Source of the DNA: Salinimicrobium sediminilitoris
GTDB lineage: Bacteria > Bacteroidota > Bacteroidia > Flavobacteriales > Flavobacteriaceae
Assembly: GCF_020866905.1 (NCBI RefSeq)
Contig: NZ_JAIVCC010000009.1
Span: 186,001-250,000 of the forward strand
Length of the DNA stretch: 64,000 bases
Reading direction: 5' to 3'
In this document: piece after piece, positions 21,576 to 32,033 of the stretch
How positions within the stretch are numbered: position 1 is the first letter of the stretch
Layout of the letters: the number at the start of each line of letters is the position of its first letter
The notes under the pieces: model-generated
Told to the model about the DNA's origin: nothing
The model's input: only the letters and a program-made list of their open reading frames with translations
The model's database searches: none
Translations under genes and position numbers: made by a program

Positions 21576-22541
21576 ATGAAAATTGGTTTCCACGCTTCCC
21601 ACGAACAATTTACCCCCGGCCATCTTCTCAAACTTGTTCAGCAGGCTGAAGATGCAGGTTTTAAAGCGGTCTTGTCGTCAGACCATTTCCATCCCTGGAG
21701 TGACAAGCAGGGACAGAGTGGATTCGCATGGAGCTGGCTGGGTGCGGCAATGCAGGCTACAAACTTGGAATACGGGATAGTGAATGCTCCAGGCCAAAGA
21801 TATCATCCTGCAATAATTGCACAGGCTGTGGCGACACTAGATCAAATGTTTCCGGGAAGATTCTTTCTCTGTTCTGGCAGTGGTCAACTTCTTAATGAAA
21901 ATATCACAGGGGAAAAATGGCCGCCAAAGAGGGACAGAAATAAACGTTTACAGGAATCGGTCGAAGTAATGCGACGCCTTTGGCAGGAAGACGGATATCT
22001 CAACCATAAGGGAATGTTCACCGTCGAGAGGGCTAAACTTTTTACCAAACCCACTCAAATTCCCACAGTATATGGAGCAGCTATTACAGAAAAAACAGCA
22101 GCCTGGCTCTCTTCGTGGGCAGATGGGATGATCACGATCTCCAAACCCGTTGAGGAACTTGAAAAAATGGTAAAAGCCTTTAGGGGAGCAGATGGAAGTG
22201 AAAAATCATTGGCTTTGAAAGTACAGGTATCCTATGCGAGTACCCGTGAAAAAGCTTTGGATGGTGCATGGGAACAATGGAGAAATAATATTTATCCTAG
22301 CAAGCTAATTGCAGATATTGACAGTCCCGAAAAGTTTGATGCCATGGGCCAAAACACCAGAAAAGAAGACATGGAAAAGCACGTGATCATTGGAAGTGAT
22401 GCAGATGTCTTTATTGAAAAGATCAAAAAATTCAATGAAATGGGATTTGAAAAAATAATCATCCATAATGTAAATGAGCAACAGGAAGATTATATAAATT
22501 TCTTTGAGAAAGAAGTACTTCCAAATCTTCAACAGCAATAA
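21576..22541 (+). CDS. LLM-class flavin-dependent oxidoreductase
   Basis: This luciferase-like monooxygenase-fold oxidoreductase has 321 residues. Conserved segments are GFHASHEQFTPGHLLKLV at the N-terminus, AVLSSDHFHPWSD, GIVNAPGQRYHPAIIAQA and GRFFLCSGSGQLLNE. The family resembles F420-dependent dehydrogenases; flavobacteria are not known to make F420, so FMN is the more likely cofactor. It is the first gene of a tight operon with two GH13 enzymes (gap 9 bases, then a 4-base overlap) and an ASRT-family protein, suggesting a role in sugar or trehalose/alpha-glucan metabolism. That link rests on context only. Confidence 0.85.
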   Translation: MKIGFHASHEQFTPGHLLKLVQQAEDAGFKAVLSSDHFHPWSDKQGQSGFAWSWLGAAMQATNLEYGIVNAPGQRYHPAIIAQAVATLDQMFPGRFFLCSGSGQLLNENITGEKWPPKRDRNKRLQESVEVMRRLWQEDGYLNHKGMFTVERAKLFTKPTQIPTVYGAAITEKTAAWLSSWADGMITISKPVEELEKMVKAFRGADGSEKSLALKVQVSYASTREKALDGAWEQWRNNIYPSKLIADIDSPEKFDAMGQNTRKEDMEKHVIIGSDADVFIEKIKKFNEMGFEKIIIHNVNEQQEDYINFFEKEVLPNLQQQ

Positions 22542-22550
22542 CTCACTAAG

Positions 22551-24191
22551 ATGAATAAGTACTGGTACAAAAATGCGGTGATCTATTCGCTGGATGTAGA
22601 AACTTTTAAGGATGCAACGGGTGACGGCACCGGAGATTTCAAAGGACTTAAAAATGCCCTTCCATACCTTTCAAGCCTTGGGATCACCTGTCTCTGGCTC
22701 CTGCCAATCTTTGATACGCCCAACCGGGACAATGGCTATGACGTAAAAGATTATTATAAAATTGATCCCCGTCTCGGCGACTTAGGTCATTTCACTCAGC
22801 TCATTGATGCTGCGGAAGAAGTTGGAATAAGAGTGTTGATTGACCTTGCAGTTAATCACACTTCGACTGAACATTTCTGGTTTCAGGAATCCCGGAAGGA
22901 CAAAAATTCAGAATACAGAGACTACTACATCTGGGTAGATGAAAAGCCTGAGGACCCGGAGAAAAATATGATGGCAGCCGAAGGTGAAGAAAGCATCAGC
23001 TGGAAATATGACCGTACTGCTAAAGCATATTATTTCCATTCTTTTTATCCGCATCAACCCGATCTAAACATAGCCAATCCGCAAGTTCAGGAAGAAATAT
23101 TCAGGATTATGCAATTCTGGTTGAAGATTGGGGTTTCGGGCTTCAGGATAGACGCTGCGCCTCATATGTTCAAGGAAAAAGGCAGAATGGACTTTGAAGG
23201 AGATCCACATAAGATCTTCAGGAATTTCCGGGAATTTGTTGAAACTCAAAAACCCGATGCTATTTTGCTGGCCGAAGTTGATCTTGATCCAAACCAATAC
23301 AATAAGTATCTGGGGAACGAGGACCAGATGCATATGCTGTTTAATTTTTACGTGAATAACTTCATGTTTCTGTCATTTGCCAGGGAAGAGGCTATTCCTG
23401 TAGCCCGGGCCCTGCAAAGAATGCCTGAAGAAATTACCAGAAAAGAACAGCTCGCAACATTTCTTCGGAATCATGACGAATTAAACCTCGACAAATTGAG
23501 CAGAACCGAAAGAGACGAGGTCTTTAAAGCTTTTGCCCCCAAAGAAAACATGCGCATTTTTGGTAGGGGAATAAGAAGAAGATTGGCTTCAATGCTCGGA
23601 AATGACCGAAAAAAAATGGAGCTGGCCCATAGCCTTCTTTTTACGATTCCCGGCACACCGGTATTGCGGTACGGTGAAGAAATAGGAATGGGGGAAGATC
23701 TTTCAATGGAAGGTCGTTCCAGTGTTCGCACAGTTATGCAGTGGGCTAATGACAGGAACGGCGGATTTTCTACTGCACCCACAGAAAATCTTATTAGAAA
23801 TGTCATTTCCGGAGGAGATTTTGGCTACGAGAAAGTTAATGTAAATGATCAATTGAGAGATCCCGATTCTTTTCTTACCTGGATCTCCAAAGCCATAGAT
23901 TACCGAAAGGAATTTGCGGAATTTGGATGGGGCCGTAATCACGTCATTGACACCGGTAATCCTCATGTTTTAGGGCACTATACAAAATCTGAAAAAGGAA
24001 TGGGAGTAGCATTTCATAATTTCTCGGGGAAAGAAATTACCATAAAGCTCGAAGTGGATAAAGAATTATTTAAGGATGTTGTAGATGTCTTCGGAAATAT
24101 AAGATACGAAAATTTCGACCCCGAAAAAGCTGAAGTAAAGTTAACCCCTTATGGTTACAGGTGGATGCATAAAAAACATAACTTCTTATGA
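22551..24191 (+). CDS. GH13 alpha-amylase-family enzyme (trehalose synthase-like)
   Basis: This is a predicted glucan- or trehalose-active hydrolase or glucosyl-isomerase. The 546-residue product opens with YSLDVETFKDATGDGTGDF. It carries the GH13 motifs LIDLAVNHTS (region I), GFRIDAAPH with the nucleophile Asp (region II), LLAEVDLD with the acid/base Glu (region III) and FLRNHDELNLD with the transition-state Asp (region IV). The opening resembles trehalose synthase-type proteins, but the lack of a maltokinase partner leaves the substrate open. No signal peptide is seen, so it is cytoplasmic. Its last four bases overlap the next GH13 gene. Confidence 0.9.
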   Translation: MNKYWYKNAVIYSLDVETFKDATGDGTGDFKGLKNALPYLSSLGITCLWLLPIFDTPNRDNGYDVKDYYKIDPRLGDLGHFTQLIDAAEEVGIRVLIDLAVNHTSTEHFWFQESRKDKNSEYRDYYIWVDEKPEDPEKNMMAAEGEESISWKYDRTAKAYYFHSFYPHQPDLNIANPQVQEEIFRIMQFWLKIGVSGFRIDAAPHMFKEKGRMDFEGDPHKIFRNFREFVETQKPDAILLAEVDLDPNQYNKYLGNEDQMHMLFNFYVNNFMFLSFAREEAIPVARALQRMPEEITRKEQLATFLRNHDELNLDKLSRTERDEVFKAFAPKENMRIFGRGIRRRLASMLGNDRKKMELAHSLLFTIPGTPVLRYGEEIGMGEDLSMEGRSSVRTVMQWANDRNGGFSTAPTENLIRNVISGGDFGYEKVNVNDQLRDPDSFLTWISKAIDYRKEFAEFGWGRNHVIDTGNPHVLGHYTKSEKGMGVAFHNFSGKEITIKLEVDKELFKDVVDVFGNIRYENFDPEKAEVKLTPYGYRWMHKKHNFL

Positions 24192-25783
24192 ATTACAAAG
24201 AATACTTATGGTGGCACAAGGGAACAGTGTATCAAATTTACCCCAGATCATATAAAGACAGTGATGGTGATGGTGTAGGAGACCTACGTGGAATAATTGA
24301 AAAACTCGATTACCTGAAAGATCTGGGTATCGATGCTGTCTGGATATCGCCCATTTATCCTTCTCCCATGGCCGATTTTGGCTATGATGTGAGTGATTAT
24401 ACCGGTATTCATCCACTATTTGGAGAAATGAAGGATTTTGATGAATTGCTCAGGGAAGTACATCAAAGAGAAATGAAGCTTATCCTTGACTTAGTACCTA
24501 ATCATTCTTCAAATAAACATCCATGGTTCCTTGAATCTAAAAGTTCAAAAAACAATCATAAACGGGACTGGTATATTTGGAAAGATCCCGGTAAGGATGG
24601 AGGTCCACCTAATAACTGGTTAAGTGTATTTGGAGGTAGCGGCTGGGAATATGATGAGGAAACCGAACAGTACTATTACCATGCTTTCCTAAAAGAACAA
24701 CCCGATCTCAATTGGAGAAACCCCGATTTGCAACAGGCAATGCTGGCCATAATGAGGTACTGGCTCAAGAAGGGAGTAGACGGTTTTAGGGTAGATGTGA
24801 TGTGGCATATGATCAAGGACGAACAATTGAGGGATGATCCACCAAATCCTGATTATAAGGAAGGAATGAATTCATACAGCAAATTACTACCGGCCTATTC
24901 AACAGATCAGGATGAAGTTCATGACATAGTGCATAAAATGCGGAAGGTAATCGATGAATATGATGAGAGATTACTCATTGGAGAAATTTACCTGCCAATA
25001 AGCAAGCTTGTAAGTTATTACGGAGAAGACAATCAAGGTGCTCATTTACCTTTCAATTTTCAACTGCTGCAGCTTCCGTGGAATGCTGCCAGGATCAAAG
25101 CTACAATAGATGAATATGAAGGGGCGCTTCCTGAAAATGGCTGGCCCAATTGGGTGTTGGGTAACCATGACAATTCCCGAATTGCAAGCCGGGTGGGGAA
25201 GGAGCAGGCCAAAAATGCCGCAATATTGTTGCTAACACTTAGAGGAACGCCTACCATTTATTACGGGGATGAACTGGGGATGCAGGATGTTGATATTCCA
25301 AAGGAGAAGATCCAGGATCCACAGGCTTTGAACGAACCGGGGGTTGGGCGCAGTCGGGATCCCGAACGCACCCCGATGCAGTGGGATGCCACAAAACATG
25401 CAGGATTTACTAAAGGAGAACCCTGGCTTCCGCTTATGGGTAATTACAAAGAAATTAATGTAAAGAAGGAGTGGGACCAGCCTGGTTCCATGCTTCAGCT
25501 GCACAGGAAACTTCTAAAGATTCGGGCGCAGGAGCCGGCCCTGCAAGTTGGTAGTTATGTGCCTGTACTTTCTGAAGAGGAAATTCTTTCTTACATCAGA
25601 AAATACGAAAAACAGCAGTTCCTTATTGTTTTAAATCTCACAGATTCAGAAGTGAATTTTGCTCCCGATTTTGAATGGAAAGGAACTGTGGAAGTTTCAT
25701 CCCACGAAGAATTTGAAGGAAAAGAAATGAGTGATAAAATTAACCTTCCGGCCAATCTGGGACTGCTTATAAAACTGAAATAA
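24188..25783 (+). CDS. GH13 alpha-glucosidase / oligo-1,6-glucosidase
   Basis: This is a predicted cytoplasmic exo-acting alpha-glucosidase. The 531-residue product starts WWHKGTVYQIYPRSYKDSDG. It shows the GH13 regions LDLVPNHSS, GFRVDVMWHM (nucleophile Asp), LIGEIYLP (acid/base Glu) and WVLGNHDNSR (third catalytic Asp), plus the loop GTPTIYYGDELGM. The overall layout fits the oligo-1,6-glucosidase subfamily. It overlaps the preceding GH13 gene by ATGA and is followed after 3 bases by the ASRT homologue, so all are translated from one message. Confidence 0.94.
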   Translation: MNYKEYLWWHKGTVYQIYPRSYKDSDGDGVGDLRGIIEKLDYLKDLGIDAVWISPIYPSPMADFGYDVSDYTGIHPLFGEMKDFDELLREVHQREMKLILDLVPNHSSNKHPWFLESKSSKNNHKRDWYIWKDPGKDGGPPNNWLSVFGGSGWEYDEETEQYYYHAFLKEQPDLNWRNPDLQQAMLAIMRYWLKKGVDGFRVDVMWHMIKDEQLRDDPPNPDYKEGMNSYSKLLPAYSTDQDEVHDIVHKMRKVIDEYDERLLIGEIYLPISKLVSYYGEDNQGAHLPFNFQLLQLPWNAARIKATIDEYEGALPENGWPNWVLGNHDNSRIASRVGKEQAKNAAILLLTLRGTPTIYYGDELGMQDVDIPKEKIQDPQALNEPGVGRSRDPERTPMQWDATKHAGFTKGEPWLPLMGNYKEINVKKEWDQPGSMLQLHRKLLKIRAQEPALQVGSYVPVLSEEEILSYIRKYEKQQFLIVLNLTDSEVNFAPDFEWKGTVEVSSHEEFEGKEMSDKINLPANLGLLIKLK

Positions 25784-25786
25784 ACA

Positions 25787-26158
25787 ATGAAAGCATTAGG
25801 AAAAAAGACCTGGGTAATAGCTGAAGGCTATATCCCCGAATATGGAACGGGTAAGGAACCTGAATTCACAAGTCATGAAACGGCTTGTATTCTCAACACC
25901 TCGAATCAAGATGCCAAGGTGGAATTGACCATCTTTTTCTCAGATAAAGATCCGGTGGGACCCTATAAAGTGACTGTAGAGGCTCAGCGCACCAAACATT
26001 TAAGGTTCAACGACTTGAAAGACCCGGAGCCTGTTCCTTTAGGTACAGATTATGCCTGCGTGATCGAGTCTTCTGTGCCGGTAGTAGTACAGCATACCCG
26101 CCTGGATTCAAGACAGGCAGAAAATGCCCTTTTGACCACCATAGCATATTCGGAATAA
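25787..26158 (+). CDS. ASRT-family protein (sensory rhodopsin transducer homologue)
   Basis: The 123-residue product is a close match, along its full length, to the soluble transducer of Anabaena sensory rhodopsin. Shared blocks include AEGYIPEYGTG, FTSHETACILN, SDKDPVGPYKVTV, RRTKH-like QRTKHLRFNDL and VPVVVQHTRLDSRQAENALL. No rhodopsin gene lies in this window. It closes the operon with the two GH13 enzymes, which fits earlier proposals that the wider ASRT superfamily binds sugar-like small molecules. It is a compact beta-rich cytoplasmic protein, probably a tetramer by family precedent. The ligand is unknown. Confidence 0.9.
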   Translation: MKALGKKTWVIAEGYIPEYGTGKEPEFTSHETACILNTSNQDAKVELTIFFSDKDPVGPYKVTVEAQRTKHLRFNDLKDPEPVPLGTDYACVIESSVPVVVQHTRLDSRQAENALLTTIAYSE

Positions 26159-26295: not shown

Positions 26296-26634
26296 ATGAA
26301 AAACAAGTTGCAAAATGCGCTCCTGGTGTTTTCTACGATCATTCTCTTTGGTTGTGGCAGTACTATGGAAACCAGGACAATGAAACCGGTGCTTAGAGCC
26401 GCTACAGATGCACCTGAAAATTTTATAGCACCGGAAGGTGCTACTACAGGAAATGATTCCTGTAACAATCCATTAACCGATCCCCGGGATGGCACAAAGA
26501 TTATTATGCAGTCTGCTTTTTCTGGAGGAGTTGGGGATTATGAGGTACCCGACGGTAAGTATGGGGTTCAAAAAGGGGAATTCTTAAGAATAAAATGTGT
26601 TACAGGAGAAGTGGTAGGTATCGTGAGACGATAA
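26296..26634 (+). CDS. Small predicted lipoprotein
   Basis: The function is unknown. The 112-residue product has a lipoprotein signal with lipobox ILFGC (Cys at about residue 20). A short Thr/Ala/Pro-rich linker follows, then a compact domain with two cysteines (NDSCNNPLTDPRDGTKIIM and LRIKCVTGEVVGIV) that could form a disulfide. It lies between the ASRT operon and the converging M14-family gene, has its own 137-base spacer upstream and is probably monocistronic. Confidence 0.75.
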   Translation: MKNKLQNALLVFSTIILFGCGSTMETRTMKPVLRAATDAPENFIAPEGATTGNDSCNNPLTDPRDGTKIIMQSAFSGGVGDYEVPDGKYGVQKGEFLRIKCVTGEVVGIVRR

Positions 26635-26659: not shown

Positions 26660-27556
26660 TTATTGTTCTTCAATGACAAAAAAGCCATCATTGCCCTGAG
26701 ACTGGTAAAGGGGCATAAAAATGTACGCATCCCATTCACTTTTTATCTCCTGGCCATTACTTGTTGCAAGTAACTGGCCTTTTTTAATTTTCTGAAAGTT
26801 CTTAAAGCCCGGCTCCATTTTAAAGCTATCTCCTTTTTTGATTTCGTGCCGGTATTTGATCTCAAAAGTCTTTTGAGAAGGAGCATTTTTCTCGGTAAAA
26901 CGTTCCACACATTCGGGATAGCAGGAAACATTCGTCACTTCAAGACCGTTTGCTTCCTTTAAAGCCAGCCATATCATTCCTTCATGGTTTTCAACAGAAG
27001 CCTTGCTGGTGTGTTGGCCTGCTTCAAAGACAAAACCTGTAAGACCGGTTCGGCTCATATAGTGATCTATGGCACCGTAGATAATATCACTAAATCCTCT
27101 CACAATGTAGGTAGGGAATTTGTGGGCCCAGCTATCATTGTCATTCACATCCTGCACAGATATGTAAGGCAAACTATCTGAAGAGGTTGTGTGGCAGTCC
27201 AGAAAATAACGTTTTGAATAATCCTTTTCGGGATACTTTTCAAGGACTTCAATTATTTCATGCATTTCCCTTTGTTCCTGGGTTTCAGGATCGTTGTTCC
27301 TGACATTATCTTCGGTCCAGGTGCGGTTCAGGTCTTCATCAATATACCGCTGTTCCTTTTCCAGGGCAGCTTTATTACCCATTACACCTACAATTCGGCC
27401 GTTGATCTCGGGTTTGGTTTTTTCAAGTTCGGCAAAGACCTTTTTCAAGGCTTGTACCCCGCTGGGTTCATTTCCATGAACCCCGGCAGTGACAAATAAT
27501 AATGGTCCTTTTTTATTGGTGGAGTATTCTCCTATAATTCGGGTGTTATCTTTCAT
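26660..27556 (-). CDS. AstE/AspA-like M14 hydrolase
   Basis: This is a zinc-dependent hydrolase of the succinylglutamate desuccinylase/aspartoacylase branch of M14. The 298-residue product has the zinc site GVHGNEPSG (about 24-32), the substrate-binding region EDLNRTW (about 75-81) and the third ligand in FLDCHTTSSDS (about 121-131). The C-terminal beta domain ends with EWDAYIFMPLYQSQGNDGFF, typical of AstE-like proteins. It is the last gene of a four-gene unit (DUF1704 peptidase, two ATP-grasp ligases, this), 18 bases after the second ligase, so it may hydrolyse an amide that those ligases make. That is inference from context. Confidence 0.88.
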   Translation of the reverse strand: MKDNTRIIGEYSTNKKGPLLFVTAGVHGNEPSGVQALKKVFAELEKTKPEINGRIVGVMGNKAALEKEQRYIDEDLNRTWTEDNVRNNDPETQEQREMHEIIEVLEKYPEKDYSKRYFLDCHTTSSDSLPYISVQDVNDNDSWAHKFPTYIVRGFSDIIYGAIDHYMSRTGLTGFVFEAGQHTSKASVENHEGMIWLALKEANGLEVTNVSCYPECVERFTEKNAPSQKTFEIKYRHEIKKGDSFKMEPGFKNFQKIKKGQLLATSNGQEIKSEWDAYIFMPLYQSQGNDGFFVIEEQ

Positions 27557-27574
27557 TGTATATTTTTTCTGAAG

Positions 27575-28624
27575 TTATGCCATAGTAGCCAACACCTGAT
27601 TGGATATCTGGCCCTTGTACAACTTCTTGTATTCAACTTTCTTTTCAATAGCGTCTATCACTACATCCGAAAAATCGGGGAGTCCTATTTCTCCGAAGTG
27701 ATCCATCCCGCCTGGACTCAGAACATTGATTTCAATGAGCTTGTCTTTGACAATATCAAGTCCTACGAAGAATAAGCCGTCCCTTATTAATTTTGGAGCG
27801 GTTATTTCAATGATCTTTTTCATCTCTTCTGTAAGCGGACTTTTATCGCCTGTACCTCCCTGATTAAAATTACTTCGGAATTCTCCCTCACCGGTCAATC
27901 TCTTGATGATCCCGTAATTACCGTCTTTTTCCATTACACGGCCATTGAGAAGTAATACTCTTACATCTCCATCTTTGGCTGCAGGTAAATATTCCTGGGC
28001 TATAATGTATCCCTGTCCAGAAAGGTTCTCTATGATCTGGTTAAGGTTCTTTTCGTTTTTATCGATAAGGTATACATCTCTACCACCAGAACCTTCAAGA
28101 GGTTTAAGAACCATTTTCTTCTTATGTTTTTCGAAGAATTCCATAACGTCCTCTTTCTTACGGGTAATTATGGAATTTGGTTTTATACTGGCAGGAAGTT
28201 CTTCAAAGTATAGTTTGTCGATAAAAGCATTGGATAGGGCGTAGGCATCATTCAAAACCAGCACTCCTTCCTGTTGCATCATACGCCCAAAAGCAATACC
28301 AGATTGTTCAGCCCATTGGCGGGAAGACCCTTCCTCGGTTGGATTATTCCTTATGAACAGCACATCAAGATCTGTAGCTGTTATTCTTTCTTTTTTAGCT
28401 TTATCTCCCTGGAGGAGTTTAAGGTATTCTTCGGGCGTCTTGGCTTCCATTTTTTTAGGAACGTAGGTAGAATCAATAGAGAGCTCTTCGCCCTGCTTAA
28501 AAAAGAAGTCTCCTACTCCCATTGCATAAACCTCATGCTTACGTTTACGGGCCTCCTGCATAAGGAACACGGTGGTCCCACAGGTTTCAGTTTCAACATT
28601 ATTTACAACAAAACATATTTTCAT
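27575..28624 (-). CDS. GshB-like ATP-grasp ligase (downstream copy)
   Basis: This is a predicted carboxylate-amine ligase with the glutathione synthetase ATP-grasp fold. The 349-residue product has an N-terminal pre-ATP-grasp domain (KICFVVNNVETETCGTTVFL) and the ATP-binding loop LKPLEGSGGRDVYLID (about 173-188). The Mg2+/ATP-binding end is in LFFVGLDIVKDKLIEINVLSPGG (about 296-318). It is paralogous to the gene just upstream (same length, most blocks identical). The family is annotated as glutathione synthase, but no gamma-glutamylcysteine ligase is nearby and there are two copies beside peptidase-like genes, so another peptide substrate is likely. Confidence 0.9.
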   Translation of the reverse strand: MKICFVVNNVETETCGTTVFLMQEARKRKHEVYAMGVGDFFFKQGEELSIDSTYVPKKMEAKTPEEYLKLLQGDKAKKERITATDLDVLFIRNNPTEEGSSRQWAEQSGIAFGRMMQQEGVLVLNDAYALSNAFIDKLYFEELPASIKPNSIITRKKEDVMEFFEKHKKKMVLKPLEGSGGRDVYLIDKNEKNLNQIIENLSGQGYIIAQEYLPAAKDGDVRVLLLNGRVMEKDGNYGIIKRLTGEGEFRSNFNQGGTGDKSPLTEEMKKIIEITAPKLIRDGLFFVGLDIVKDKLIEINVLSPGGMDHFGEIGLPDFSDVVIDAIEKKVEYKKLYKGQISNQVLATMA

Positions 28625-28678
28625 TAATTCTTTGATTTAAGGGATTTCTCCCGGTTTATTATTTTTCTGAATTTTATC

Positions 28679-29728
28679 TTACTCCATTGTGGCCAGCTCT
28701 CTGTTCGATATTCCCGAACCGTAGAGCTTCTTATATTCTACTTTTTTCTCTATGGCTTCAATGATAACATCTGAGAAATTTTCTATACCAATTTTGTGAA
28801 GTCCGTCGATCCCACCGGGACTCAGTACATTGATCTCTATAAGCTTATCCTTTACCACGTCCAGGCCTACAAAAAAGTGTCCGTCCCTTTTTAATTTAGG
28901 TCCGATGATATCCACTATTTTCTGAATTTCCTCTGTGTGTTCGCTGGCTTCAGGGGTAGCGCCCTGTGAAATATTACTGCGGAATTCCCCATCACCACTA
29001 ACTCTTTTAATGATCCCGAACTTTCCGTTCTTTTGAAGGATCTTTCCGTTCAGAAGAAGAACCCGTACATCTCCTTCCTTGGCGGCAGGTAAATACTGCT
29101 GGGCAATTATGTAACCCTGTGCACTAAGGTTTTCAATGATCTGGTTGAGATTTTTCTCATTCTTGTCGATCAGGTAAACACCGCGTCCTCCAGATCCTTC
29201 CAGAGGTTTAAGGATCATTTTCTTCTTATGGTTCTCAAAAAACTCCAGGATTTCCTGTTTATCACGAGTAATAAGAGATGCCGGTTTTACATGGGCAGGT
29301 AACTCCTCAAAATAAAGCTTATCTATAAAAGCATTGGAAAGGGCAAAAGCATCATTAATAACTAAAACTCCCTCCTGTTGAACCATGCGGCCAAACGCCA
29401 CACCAGATTGCTCCGCCCAATGACGCCCAGAATCTTCTTCGGTAGGATTGTTACGAATGAAGAGTACGTCTAACTCTTTTGCTTTAATTTTTTTCATTTT
29501 AGCTTTTTCCCCCTGTAGCATTTCAAGATGTTCTTCAGGATTCCGAAGCTTCAGGCTTTTAGGCAGGGAAGTACTAATAATTGTAAGTGCTTCATTTTGA
29601 GTGAAACTGAAATCACCGACCCCCATAAGATACACTTCATGGTTTCTTTTCCAGGCTTCATGCATTATATAGACCGTGGTTCCTGCACCTTCGGTCTCCA
29701 CACTGTTAACTACAAAACATATCTTCAT
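28679..29728 (-). CDS. GshB-like ATP-grasp ligase (upstream copy)
   Basis: This is the paralogue of the downstream ligase, of equal length (349 residues) and with the same domain order. The ATP loop reads LKPLEGSGGRGVYLID, where the second copy has Asp in place of the third loop Gly. The metal-binding end is HFFVGLDVVKDKLIEINVLSPGG. Differences concentrate in the N-terminal substrate-side region (VNSVETEGAGTTVYIM against VNNVETETCGTTVFLM) and in the loop after SQGATPEASEHTEE, which suggests different acceptors. Its ATG overlaps the stop of the DUF1704 gene by 4 bases, so translation is probably coupled. Confidence 0.9.
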   Translation of the reverse strand: MKICFVVNSVETEGAGTTVYIMHEAWKRNHEVYLMGVGDFSFTQNEALTIISTSLPKSLKLRNPEEHLEMLQGEKAKMKKIKAKELDVLFIRNNPTEEDSGRHWAEQSGVAFGRMVQQEGVLVINDAFALSNAFIDKLYFEELPAHVKPASLITRDKQEILEFFENHKKKMILKPLEGSGGRGVYLIDKNEKNLNQIIENLSAQGYIIAQQYLPAAKEGDVRVLLLNGKILQKNGKFGIIKRVSGDGEFRSNISQGATPEASEHTEEIQKIVDIIGPKLKRDGHFFVGLDVVKDKLIEINVLSPGGIDGLHKIGIENFSDVIIEAIEKKVEYKKLYGSGISNRELATME

Positions 29729-31611
29729 GCATTAATTAATTTGGAAAGGGGGATTCCCTCCCTGATTTGACTTAGTTTTTTTCGGGTTTCTTCGGTATGA
29801 AGATATCTTGGGGTAAGTTTCACGGGGGAAAGTACTCGCCTTTCATTCAATTCACTGATAATTGGCATGTGCTCAAGGGCAAATTTCCCTGTGAGCAGGG
29901 GAGCTAATTCTCCACCTTCTTCCAGGTGTTTTTTGAGTTGCACCAGTCCTTTTAAATATGAAATATCTTTTGTAAAACCACCTCCCTGCATTATTCTGGA
30001 GGTAATATTAAAAGCACGCTGTGGTTTAAAATTATAATCTTTATTGAGCAGCCGGAAGATCTCCTTGAAATCTGCCCCGTGCATGCGGGCCGAAGCTGCG
30101 ACTACCCGGCCGGCCAGGGTTCGCATCCTGTTGCCGGTAAGCCCGCCAACGAGGTATTCCGATAGAACAGCAAGCCCTTCCTGCAGGGTATCATAATCTG
30201 TAAGGCCTATGGATAATAATTTTAAAGGCTGTTGATTCCCATTATAATAAGTGAGGACATGGGTTCCTATTTCGTGCTGGATCAATGCTTTAGTTTCATT
30301 TGCATTGAGTTTGTAATCACTTGGCAAATAAAGTTCTCCCCTGGAAACCATAAGGATATTCACATCATCACGAATGTGGACCTTACTGGAAAAATTTTCG
30401 TCCTGTTCCCTGAAGTAATCAAACTCCTTATTTGCCAGTACCCTAAAATCTTCTGCTTTCATAATGCTTTCAAAAGCATGATCTTCCTTCTCAGGAACTT
30501 CTTTTAAGATAGTTTCAGCTTCATGTTGCAGATCATTGCTAATTTTTCCAAACAGCATCATACTGTTGTAGAAAAAATTATCTGAGCCTCTGTCGCTAAG
30601 CATACTTATCTGTAGATCTAGCTCTTCACGTTTTTCCCTGAAGATATAGGAGAGGGCGGGATCATCAATTTCCTCCAGTTTGAGATTATAAAGTCTTCGT
30701 TTTAGAACATCTGGATCAAATGGTATAAGCCGGTAATGATAGTTGAGTACCTTTTCATAATTACTTTCGAAAAATGTGTCTTTGATCTGCCGTATGTTGG
30801 CAGGGGAAACCAACCACAGGAACTGGTAAGAAGTTTCTATTTCGGCCAGCTGCCGGTCAATTTCCCTAACTTTATTTTGAAGGTTTTTTTGCCCCAGAGC
30901 TCTGTAGCTCTTGACTCCGCTGGAGGTTTGGATTCTAATGAACTGAAATATTGTTTTGTGAAGGGCAACTACAAAATCATCTTTAAAGCTTCTAAAGAAA
31001 ACCGGGTAGTCTTCTCCTTCCTTGCTGCGGTAGACGGGCGGCACCTCAATTCCCAGCAGTAAACATCCGGAAGCTTTTAACTGTTCCAGGTTTAAAAGAG
31101 GTTTCTTCCCTTCTGGTTGTCTTTCCAGAGTATCCTGCACTTCGGAAGATCCAAGTTGCAAAGCCCTGTATCCTGAATCAACGTCATCCAGTTCTTCCTG
31201 TAAAACTTTAATTGTGGTGGAAAGTTTTTCTGCAGGACCCTTAATTTTAAATTTTCGACTCTCCGGGGCTCCTGCAAAAACCTCAATGATCAAAAAGGAT
31301 TTAAATTTTGAGGACATGGCTTCACTAAGGCAAAACATGAGCCGTTGGTATCCTTCAAAATCCTTGTTTCCTATAATTAGAAAGGAAGCTTCACTCAAAA
31401 TAAGACGCACGGTAGCGCGGTCTTTTCCCTTTTCTATATCCTCATCTTCGTTTCTGTAAATAACAAGGTAGGGGAGTTCATCACTCATATGAAGGAAACC
31501 ACCCCCCGGTAAATGCTTTTCAATCTCGCATTTCTCCTGGAGTTCTTCTACTATTTTTTCAATAGAAATTTCACTAAAAGCCTGTGGTTCATTAGATGTA
31601 CTTACTGCCAT
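29725..31611 (-). CDS. DUF1704/QEGLA-motif metallopeptidase-like protein
   Basis: This is the lead gene of the ATP-grasp operon. The 628-residue product has a long N-terminal region (about 1-380) of unknown role and a C-terminal zinc-peptidase-like domain with HEIGTH (about 446-451) and the signature QEGLAVLSEYLVGG (about 476-489). The family is usually listed as a flavohemoglobin-expression-modulating QEGLA protein. The same HEIGTH plus EGLA arrangement defines the MATCAP tubulin tyrosine carboxypeptidases of eukaryotes, so a carboxypeptidase acting on a peptide tail is a reasonable hypothesis. No signal peptide is present. The 348-base spacer before it probably holds its promoter. Confidence 0.88.
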   Translation of the reverse strand: MAVSTSNEPQAFSEISIEKIVEELQEKCEIEKHLPGGGFLHMSDELPYLVIYRNEDEDIEKGKDRATVRLILSEASFLIIGNKDFEGYQRLMFCLSEAMSSKFKSFLIIEVFAGAPESRKFKIKGPAEKLSTTIKVLQEELDDVDSGYRALQLGSSEVQDTLERQPEGKKPLLNLEQLKASGCLLLGIEVPPVYRSKEGEDYPVFFRSFKDDFVVALHKTIFQFIRIQTSSGVKSYRALGQKNLQNKVREIDRQLAEIETSYQFLWLVSPANIRQIKDTFFESNYEKVLNYHYRLIPFDPDVLKRRLYNLKLEEIDDPALSYIFREKREELDLQISMLSDRGSDNFFYNSMMLFGKISNDLQHEAETILKEVPEKEDHAFESIMKAEDFRVLANKEFDYFREQDENFSSKVHIRDDVNILMVSRGELYLPSDYKLNANETKALIQHEIGTHVLTYYNGNQQPLKLLSIGLTDYDTLQEGLAVLSEYLVGGLTGNRMRTLAGRVVAASARMHGADFKEIFRLLNKDYNFKPQRAFNITSRIMQGGGFTKDISYLKGLVQLKKHLEEGGELAPLLTGKFALEHMPIISELNERRVLSPVKLTPRYLHTEETRKKLSQIREGIPLSKLINA

Positions 31612-31959: not shown

Positions 31960-32033
31960 GGTCGCGTAGCTCAGTTGGATAGAGCATCTGCCTTCTAAGC
32001 AGACGGTCAGAGGTTCGAATCCTCTCGCGATCA
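31960..32033 (+). tRNA. tRNA-Arg (anticodon TCT)
   Basis: The 74-base cloverleaf is complete. The 7-bp acceptor stem pairs GGTCGCG (31960-31966) with CGCGATC (32026-32032), with one G-T pair. The D arm is GCTC...GAGC, the anticodon stem CTGCC/GGCAG-type carries loop TTCTAAG, and the T arm is AGAGG-TTCGAAT-CCTCT. The anticodon TCT reads AGA/AGG. CCA is not encoded. A terminator follows at once. A short open frame antisense to the tRNA is an artefact. Confidence 0.97.

Follow-up and report, generated by a model that had tools for sequence, protein, structure and literature searches.

A MATCAP-family metallopeptidase encoded with GshB-like ligases and an AstE-like amidohydrolase in Salinimicrobium sediminilitoris, and the related gene sets of other bacteria

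We analysed a 64,000-nucleotide stretch of Salinimicrobium sediminilitoris DNA (Flavobacteriaceae; RefSeq assembly GCF_020866905.1, contig NZ_JAIVCC010000009.1, positions 186,001 to 250,000, hereafter the window) for an operon encoding a long MATCAP-family metallopeptidase, two GshB-like ATP-grasp ligases and an AstE-like amidohydrolase. The conserved unit consists of three genes, those for MATCAP, one GshB-like ligase and the AstE-like amidohydrolase. By gene content AstE is an interchangeable partner, as N-formylglutamate amidohydrolase (FGase) takes the amidohydrolase slot at other loci. Profile comparisons indicate that the N-terminal domain of the long MATCAP is homologous to FGase, and the protein is best read as a fusion of MATCAP with a decayed FGase, encoded beside a separate FGase or AstE. 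The operon has the following features:

29725..31611, minus strand: MATCAP-family (DUF1704/QEGLA) metallopeptidase, long form, 628 aa (PF08014, E 3.8e-84)
30778..31611, minus strand: N-terminal ~278 residues of the 628-aa protein, a decayed FGase-like domain lacking the conserved catalytic segments (hhalign, shuffles)
28679..29728, minus strand: LIG1, GshB-like ATP-grasp ligase, 349 aa (PF02955, E 1.6e-50; PF02951)
27575..28624, minus strand: LIG2, GshB-like ATP-grasp ligase, 349 aa (PF02955, E 1.7e-48; PF02951)
26660..27556, minus strand: AstE/AspA-like zinc amidohydrolase, 298 aa (PF24827 AstE_AspA_cat, E 4.7e-20)

The genes are transcribed in the order MATCAP, LIG1, LIG2, AstE-like. MATCAP and LIG1 share four bases (29725-29728), and gaps of 54 and 18 bases separate LIG1 from LIG2 and LIG2 from the AstE-like gene. 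An earlier sequence-only reading of the window had described the same four same-strand frames, coordinates, overlap and gaps, and two ligases of equal length.

Conservation of the gene set

A PF08014 search of 199 Flavobacteriaceae genomes gave matches in 96, the proteins being either short (~385-440 aa) or long (~608-648 aa); one 482-aa protein (genome G018) and one cut by a contig end (G048) were set aside. The long form occurs at 27 loci in 25 genomes, and we read the surroundings of 26 of these along with the S. sediminilitoris operon. A GshB-like ligase adjoins the long MATCAP at all 27. AstE follows MATCAP and ligase at 19 loci (at L044 its frame has only 242 aa), FGase stands ahead of MATCAP at three (L059-L061), and neither is adjacent at five (L036, L037, L039-L041), all of them convergent to bshC, with two extra ORFs, one for a DnaJ-like protein, lying between at L037. 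The order of four genes that the sequence-only reading proposed to look for thus recurs as MATCAP-ligase-AstE, the fourth gene, the second ligase, being confined to Salinimicrobium. When ORFs of at least 35 aa were clustered by similarity out to 2.5 kb from each of the 27 operons, no cluster took in more than five loci, and the five-locus clusters all came from bshC-type loci with common flanks; hence no dedicated peptide or protein substrate gene was seen. No further gene belongs to the unit.

The association reaches well past close relatives, to which the sequence-only reading had allowed that it might be limited: it is found in other Bacteroidota families, Rhizobiales and Photobacterium. 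A profile of the N-terminal domain matched 11 of 395 Bacteroidota genomes, six of them outside Flavobacteriaceae. MATCAP and ligase are adjacent at all six outside loci, and with the 27 of 27 inside the family their pairing goes beyond chance; the order is FGase-MATCAP-ligase at five (L092, L094-L097), and at L093 the MATCAP-ligase pair is convergent to an AstE. What looked like a 914-aa MATCAP-ligase fusion at L097 came from the choice of ORF: MATCAP (691 aa) is in one frame and the ligase in another. The profile matched 127 plasmid records, in 111 of them over 80% or more of the protein, mostly from Sinorhizobium, Rhizobium and Ensifer. The three annotated Rhizobiales plasmid loci examined all have genes for N-formylglutamate amidohydrolase, a QEGLA protein and glutathione synthase/synthetase in that order, and ORFs with Pfam matches gave the same FGase-MATCAP-ligase trio in the unannotated record of S. 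meliloti 1021 pSymB. On a Photobacterium sp. DA100 plasmid the ligase is followed by a 662-aa fusion of FGase (residues 39-214) and MATCAP (326-659). In viral contigs, 44 pattern matches contained no relatives.

The short MATCAP proteins have similar surroundings. At 29 loci (L003-L032 without L031) we found FGase and ligase at 20, ligase only at one, FGase only at four and a Na+:dicarboxylate symporter (SDF) only at four; the absences mean little, because the stretches read are short. At L059 and L060 a short-MATCAP set (SDF symporter, ligase, FGase) stands with a long MATCAP and its own ligase, as if the two had merged, and L059 also has a rhodanese-domain gene (273 aa) between FGase and the short-type ligase. 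Both Salinimicrobium genomes checked also carry a second, short MATCAP (L062:6301-7455, minus strand, in genome G000, contig C11; L064:5907-7058, plus strand, in G007) beside an SDF symporter; the stretch read around it contains neither ligase nor FGase. This MATCAP has HEIGVN, losing the third motif histidine, and QAGL, losing the glutamate of EGLA, and is likely a pseudoenzyme judging by these motifs.

The decayed domain and the encoded enzymes

The catalytic domain of the 628-aa protein spans about residues 279-617 (PF08014, 283.2 bits, cut-off 27), with HEIGTH at 446-451 and QEGLA at 477-481 (E478). Profile comparison with the MATCAP structure 7z5g gave E 2.1e-13 with HEIGTH and EGLA aligned, in agreement with the kinship that the earlier reading had proposed from the motifs. 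At 319.1 bits the protein falls under the cut-off (338.65) of NCBIfam TIGR02421, the QEGLA hypothetical equivalog, and is therefore a relative and not a member. An AlphaFold2 model built from four sequences (the window and L074-L076) was set aside for its mean pLDDT of 37.5 and pTM of 0.29.

Each Pfam family matched at most one of the 19 N-terminal domains compared (best E 0.0084), and no PDB chain was significant (best E 6.1 with the first profile, 0.022 with a wider one); the FGase profile likewise found no PDB chain below E 0.94. Aligned with FGases (PF05013) by hhalign, the domain gave E 7.3e-8 and a probability of 94.6% with a more diverse set of sequences, and a weak match (E 1.8e-4, 48%) with a first, narrower set. 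The score of 59.7 compares with a maximum of 22.2 in 100 column shuffles and 13.7 for the reversed profile. In control comparisons the domain gave E 0.45 with the ligase profile and 0.16 with the AstE profile, and the MATCAP domain gave E 0.53 with FGase. Run separately against FGase, the sub-groups gave E 1e-3 (type A), 0.07 (type B/C), 1e-3 (Rhizobiales) and 8.5e-8 (five other rows); with this spread, from 8.5e-8 to 0.07, the kinship rests on the diverse set. The FGase segments HxGH and DxNR fall opposite gaps in the alignment, and DxHSYN is replaced by EVFAGA in S. sediminilitoris. We take these residues to be catalytic in FGase, and since they are missing or replaced, the domain should be catalytically dead. 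A decayed FGase domain is a possible explanation for the N-terminal half of the long bacterial MATCAP forms.

The 298-aa protein scores 72.4 bits against PF24827, the AstE/AspA catalytic superfamily (cut-off 25), and its profile matches AstE and aspartoacylase structures. H27, E30, H122 and E178, which we take to be the zinc and catalytic residues, are invariant among 15 sequences. The AstE equivalog TIGR03242 is far from reached (62.6 against 305.65 bits). The AstE-like identity given in the earlier reading thus holds; as a fixed member of the system the enzyme does not, FGase standing in its slot elsewhere. AstE and FGase have a common fold; comparison of their profiles gave no detectable similarity (E 0.16).

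Both ligases contain the glutathione synthase domains PF02951 and PF02955 and pass the cut-off (408) of the NCBIfam subfamily NF009110 with 419.2 (LIG1) and 432.8 bits (LIG2); the name of that subfamily, glutathione synthetase, is an annotation and not a function established by assay. The two are tandem copies with 72% identity. A phylogenetic tree built from 36 GshB-like ligases plus a RimK-like protein places them in two separate Salinimicrobium clades, with support of 99/99 for LIG1 (three rows: S. sediminilitoris, S. xinjiangense and strain TH3) and 100/99 for LIG2 (four rows); how they branch relative to the single ligases of G007 and other genera is not settled by the tree. The other 26 family loci, that of the Salinimicrobium genome G007 included, have one ligase of the long-MATCAP type, and the second GshB-like gene of L059 and L060 comes from the clade accompanying short MATCAP. 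This corrects the sequence-only reading, which counted two ligases in the system: they are not a conserved pair of steps, adjacent copies being a duplication confined to Salinimicrobium.

Within that genus LIG2 has evolved more slowly, with 92% identity between S. sediminilitoris and S. xinjiangense against 82% for LIG1, and it is also 92% identical to the S. profundisediminis copy. The interval between MATCAP and LIG2 in S. profundisediminis keeps pieces matching LIG1 residues 1-37 and 311-349, and because of this internal deletion LIG1 appears dispensable there. Among 38 fixed differences between the two ligases, 14 fall at residues 251-275 and 301-325, in or beside the SPGG segment and a loop absent from the E. 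coli GshB variant 1glv. This clustering was noticed only after counting and does no more than hint at a changed acceptor specificity. With dS saturated between species, dN/dS is not reliable for these genes. Elsewhere in S. sediminilitoris (contig C10, L063:5811-7688) a third ATP-grasp gene (PF02955) is directly followed by another AstE/AspA-family gene.

Possible chemistry and its alternatives

As a description of gene content, the ligation and cleavage system named in the sequence-only reading is borne out. We favour, with a confidence somewhat short of even, the reading that the operon serves as a cassette through which a small peptide metabolite of N-acyl or gamma-glutamyl type is made and recycled. 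The GshB-like ligase would activate a carboxylate (an acidic amino acid, or an intermediate of N-acyl or gamma-glutamyl type) with ATP and join an amino acid to it, and the MATCAP-type zinc carboxypeptidase would take off the C-terminal residue. The AstE-like enzyme, or FGase in other bacteria, would split the N-acyl-acidic-amino-acid amide of the same compound, after which the product could be remodelled or go back into the pool. The dead FGase domain probably either keeps the metallopeptidase in contact with the active amidohydrolase or binds the substrate of the latter. From the observed gene content, conservation, partner exchange, FGase-MATCAP fusion, N-domain kinship and catalytic motifs we infer the substrate class, the direction of flux and the physical contact in this scheme. 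AstE and FGase are both named for hydrolysis of N-acyl-glutamate or -aspartate and some related loci add an SDF symporter, which suggests substrates of Glu/Asp type; the GshB N-domain PF02951 would fit a small-molecule substrate.

In our best reading the cassette is linked to salinity. In published RNA-seq of Photobacterium damselae RM-71 at 1% versus 3% NaCl, A0J47_RS17020, named GshB, was up 38.4-fold and the QEGLA gene RS17025 27.5-fold, with RS17020 interpreted by the authors as glutathione synthetase (PMC10308900). The two genes would be neighbours, as suggested by their consecutive locus tags, and the genus suggests the fused system seen in DA100.

Several points weigh against the cassette as proposed. 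The salt response comes from another genus and probably from a short or fused form of the system. The five family loci with no adjacent amidohydrolase imply that this step can be dispensed with or is provided from elsewhere, and on a Pseudoalteromonas plasmid MATCAP stands alone, neither ligase nor amidohydrolase occurring for about 6 kb around it. By analogy with RimK, GshB-like proteins could act on proteins, and the substrate, product and activity assigned to every member are predictions.

That analogy leads to a protein-tail cycle, in which the ligase would extend the C-terminal tail of a bacterial protein by an amino acid that the MATCAP enzyme would remove. Tubulin tyrosine ligase and MATCAP do this in eukaryotes, and RimK and RimB are reported to do so for ribosomal protein S6. 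The MATCAP homology extends across the catalytic core, RimK structures are also among the profile relatives of the ligase, and in the P. damselae experiment RimK itself rose 52-fold at low salt (PMC10308900). The ligase, however, carries the small-molecule N-domain of GshB, its NF009110 score far exceeds those on RimK models, the FGase and AstE partners are named for free N-acyl amino acids, and no common neighbour gene offers itself as a target (which need not be a neighbour). We regard such a cycle as unlikely. Still more doubtful is its extension to a cycle that writes and erases C-terminal tails on an intracellular protein, with the pseudo-FGase domain as the docking part; the operon would then be the prokaryotic counterpart from which the eukaryotic pair of tubulin ligase (ATP-grasp) and MATCAP derives.

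Peptide salvage would have the operon mainly import and degrade acidic or N-acylated peptides for nitrogen, with ligation as a side or storage reaction. It would account for two hydrolases to one ligase and for the SDF symporter at related loci, but the ligase is never missing from the 27 long-MATCAP loci and its gene was duplicated in Salinimicrobium. That constancy is qualified by the short-MATCAP system, where the ligase is missing from view at 8 of 29 loci. We consider salvage rather unlikely.

The ligases could also be synthetases of glutathione or another low-molecular-weight thiol, with a gamma-glutamylcysteine ligase elsewhere, as both pass the NF009110 cut-off. Yet they miss the two equivalogs, NF003573 (199.3 and 205.9 bits, cut-off 272) and TIGR01380 (188 and 201.5 bits, cut-off 299.05), and the genome has bshC, which makes bacillithiol likely and, together with the missed cut-offs, makes plain glutathione synthesis by the operon unlikely, as the sequence-only reading had held. 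No match to PF04262 was found in the S. sediminilitoris genome. That reading had further argued that no gamma-glutamylcysteine ligase is nearby. A GCS2-family carboxylate-amine ligase does lie on the same contig, ~64 kb from the operon. Against models of glutamate-cysteine ligase its protein stays far below the cut-offs (34.9 bits at most, where 249 or more is required), and its two highest scores on carboxylate-amine ligase models are 58.7 and 55.3 bits, where 371 and 176.4 are required. The thiol explanation gains from this gene, from the five sister-type family loci convergent to bshC and from the rhodanese-domain gene at L059; against it, the GCS2 protein has a RimK-like ligase and FGase as neighbours, and the bshC neighbours, being convergent, are not co-transcribed. 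We judge it very improbable for this operon. For the short-MATCAP system glutathione-like chemistry is less easily dismissed, because the ligases of L065 and L101 pass NF003573 (287 and 292 against 272), though not TIGR01380. The GCS2 gene itself stands in a tandem (L078:20-3431) of a RimK-like 485-aa ATP-grasp ligase, the GCS2-family ligase and FGase, possibly another peptide-making operon of S. sediminilitoris.

Genomic setting and known systems

Upstream of the operon lies a plus-strand tRNA gene (31960-32033). The MATCAP protein is 98% identical to its relative in Salinimicrobium sp. TH3 and 82-83% to those in S. profundisediminis and S. xinjiangense, and the flanks vary even inside the genus. 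A 112-aa ORF convergent with the operon (26296-26634, plus strand), by eye a possible lipoprotein and with no Pfam match, is present in TH3 and S. xinjiangense and was not seen at the S. profundisediminis locus; it probably accounts for a small-ORF cluster beside the operons of the window, L045 and L050. Next to the operon (21576-26158, plus strand) are genes for a luciferase-like monooxygenase, two alpha-amylase-family proteins and a sensory-rhodopsin-transducer-like (ASRT) protein, three of which (22551-26158) have matches in the TH3 locus.

We found no description of a MATCAP-ligase-amidohydrolase gene set in the open literature, most subscription papers lying outside the search. None of the gene families is new, and public records already carry gene-by-gene annotation of the Rhizobiales trio. 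As far as we can tell, the new elements are the decayed FGase domain, the exchange of AstE for FGase, the ligase duplication in Salinimicrobium and the link to the salt data. MATCAP enzymes have been described as trimmers of tubulin tails, and we found no tested function for the bacterial relatives. Across several bacterial classes, the operon couples bacterial MATCAP to a single type of ligase and a single type of amidohydrolase; this narrows the chemistry it may perform and opens that chemistry to testing in tractable bacteria such as S. meliloti.

With the MATCAP/TMCP tubulin carboxypeptidases (KIAA0895L, PF08014) the S. sediminilitoris protein has the catalytic domain, HEIGTH and EGLA in common; unlike them it is bacterial, fused to a decayed FGase domain and encoded with a ligase and an amidohydrolase. 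Its ligases resemble GshB (1gsa) as two-domain ATP-grasp enzymes over near full length (profile E 1.5e-56), with NVLSPGG where E. coli GshB has NVTSPTC, but they fall below the glutathione synthase equivalog cut-offs and are linked to MATCAP. The AstE-like enzyme has the RYIDxDLNR segment in common with aspartoacylase and, unlike AstE, no other ast genes were noticed among the neighbouring ORFs of the operon. The Rhizobiales trio also joins an amidohydrolase, a long MATCAP and a GshB-like ligase; there FGase is upstream of MATCAP and the ligase is single, whereas in Salinimicrobium AstE is downstream of the ligase. The amidoligase/peptidase gene networks reportedly described by Iyer, Aravind and co-workers in 2009, in which peptide ligases are said to be encoded with peptidases, embody the same general idea and may already contain the MATCAP-ligase-amidohydrolase trio.

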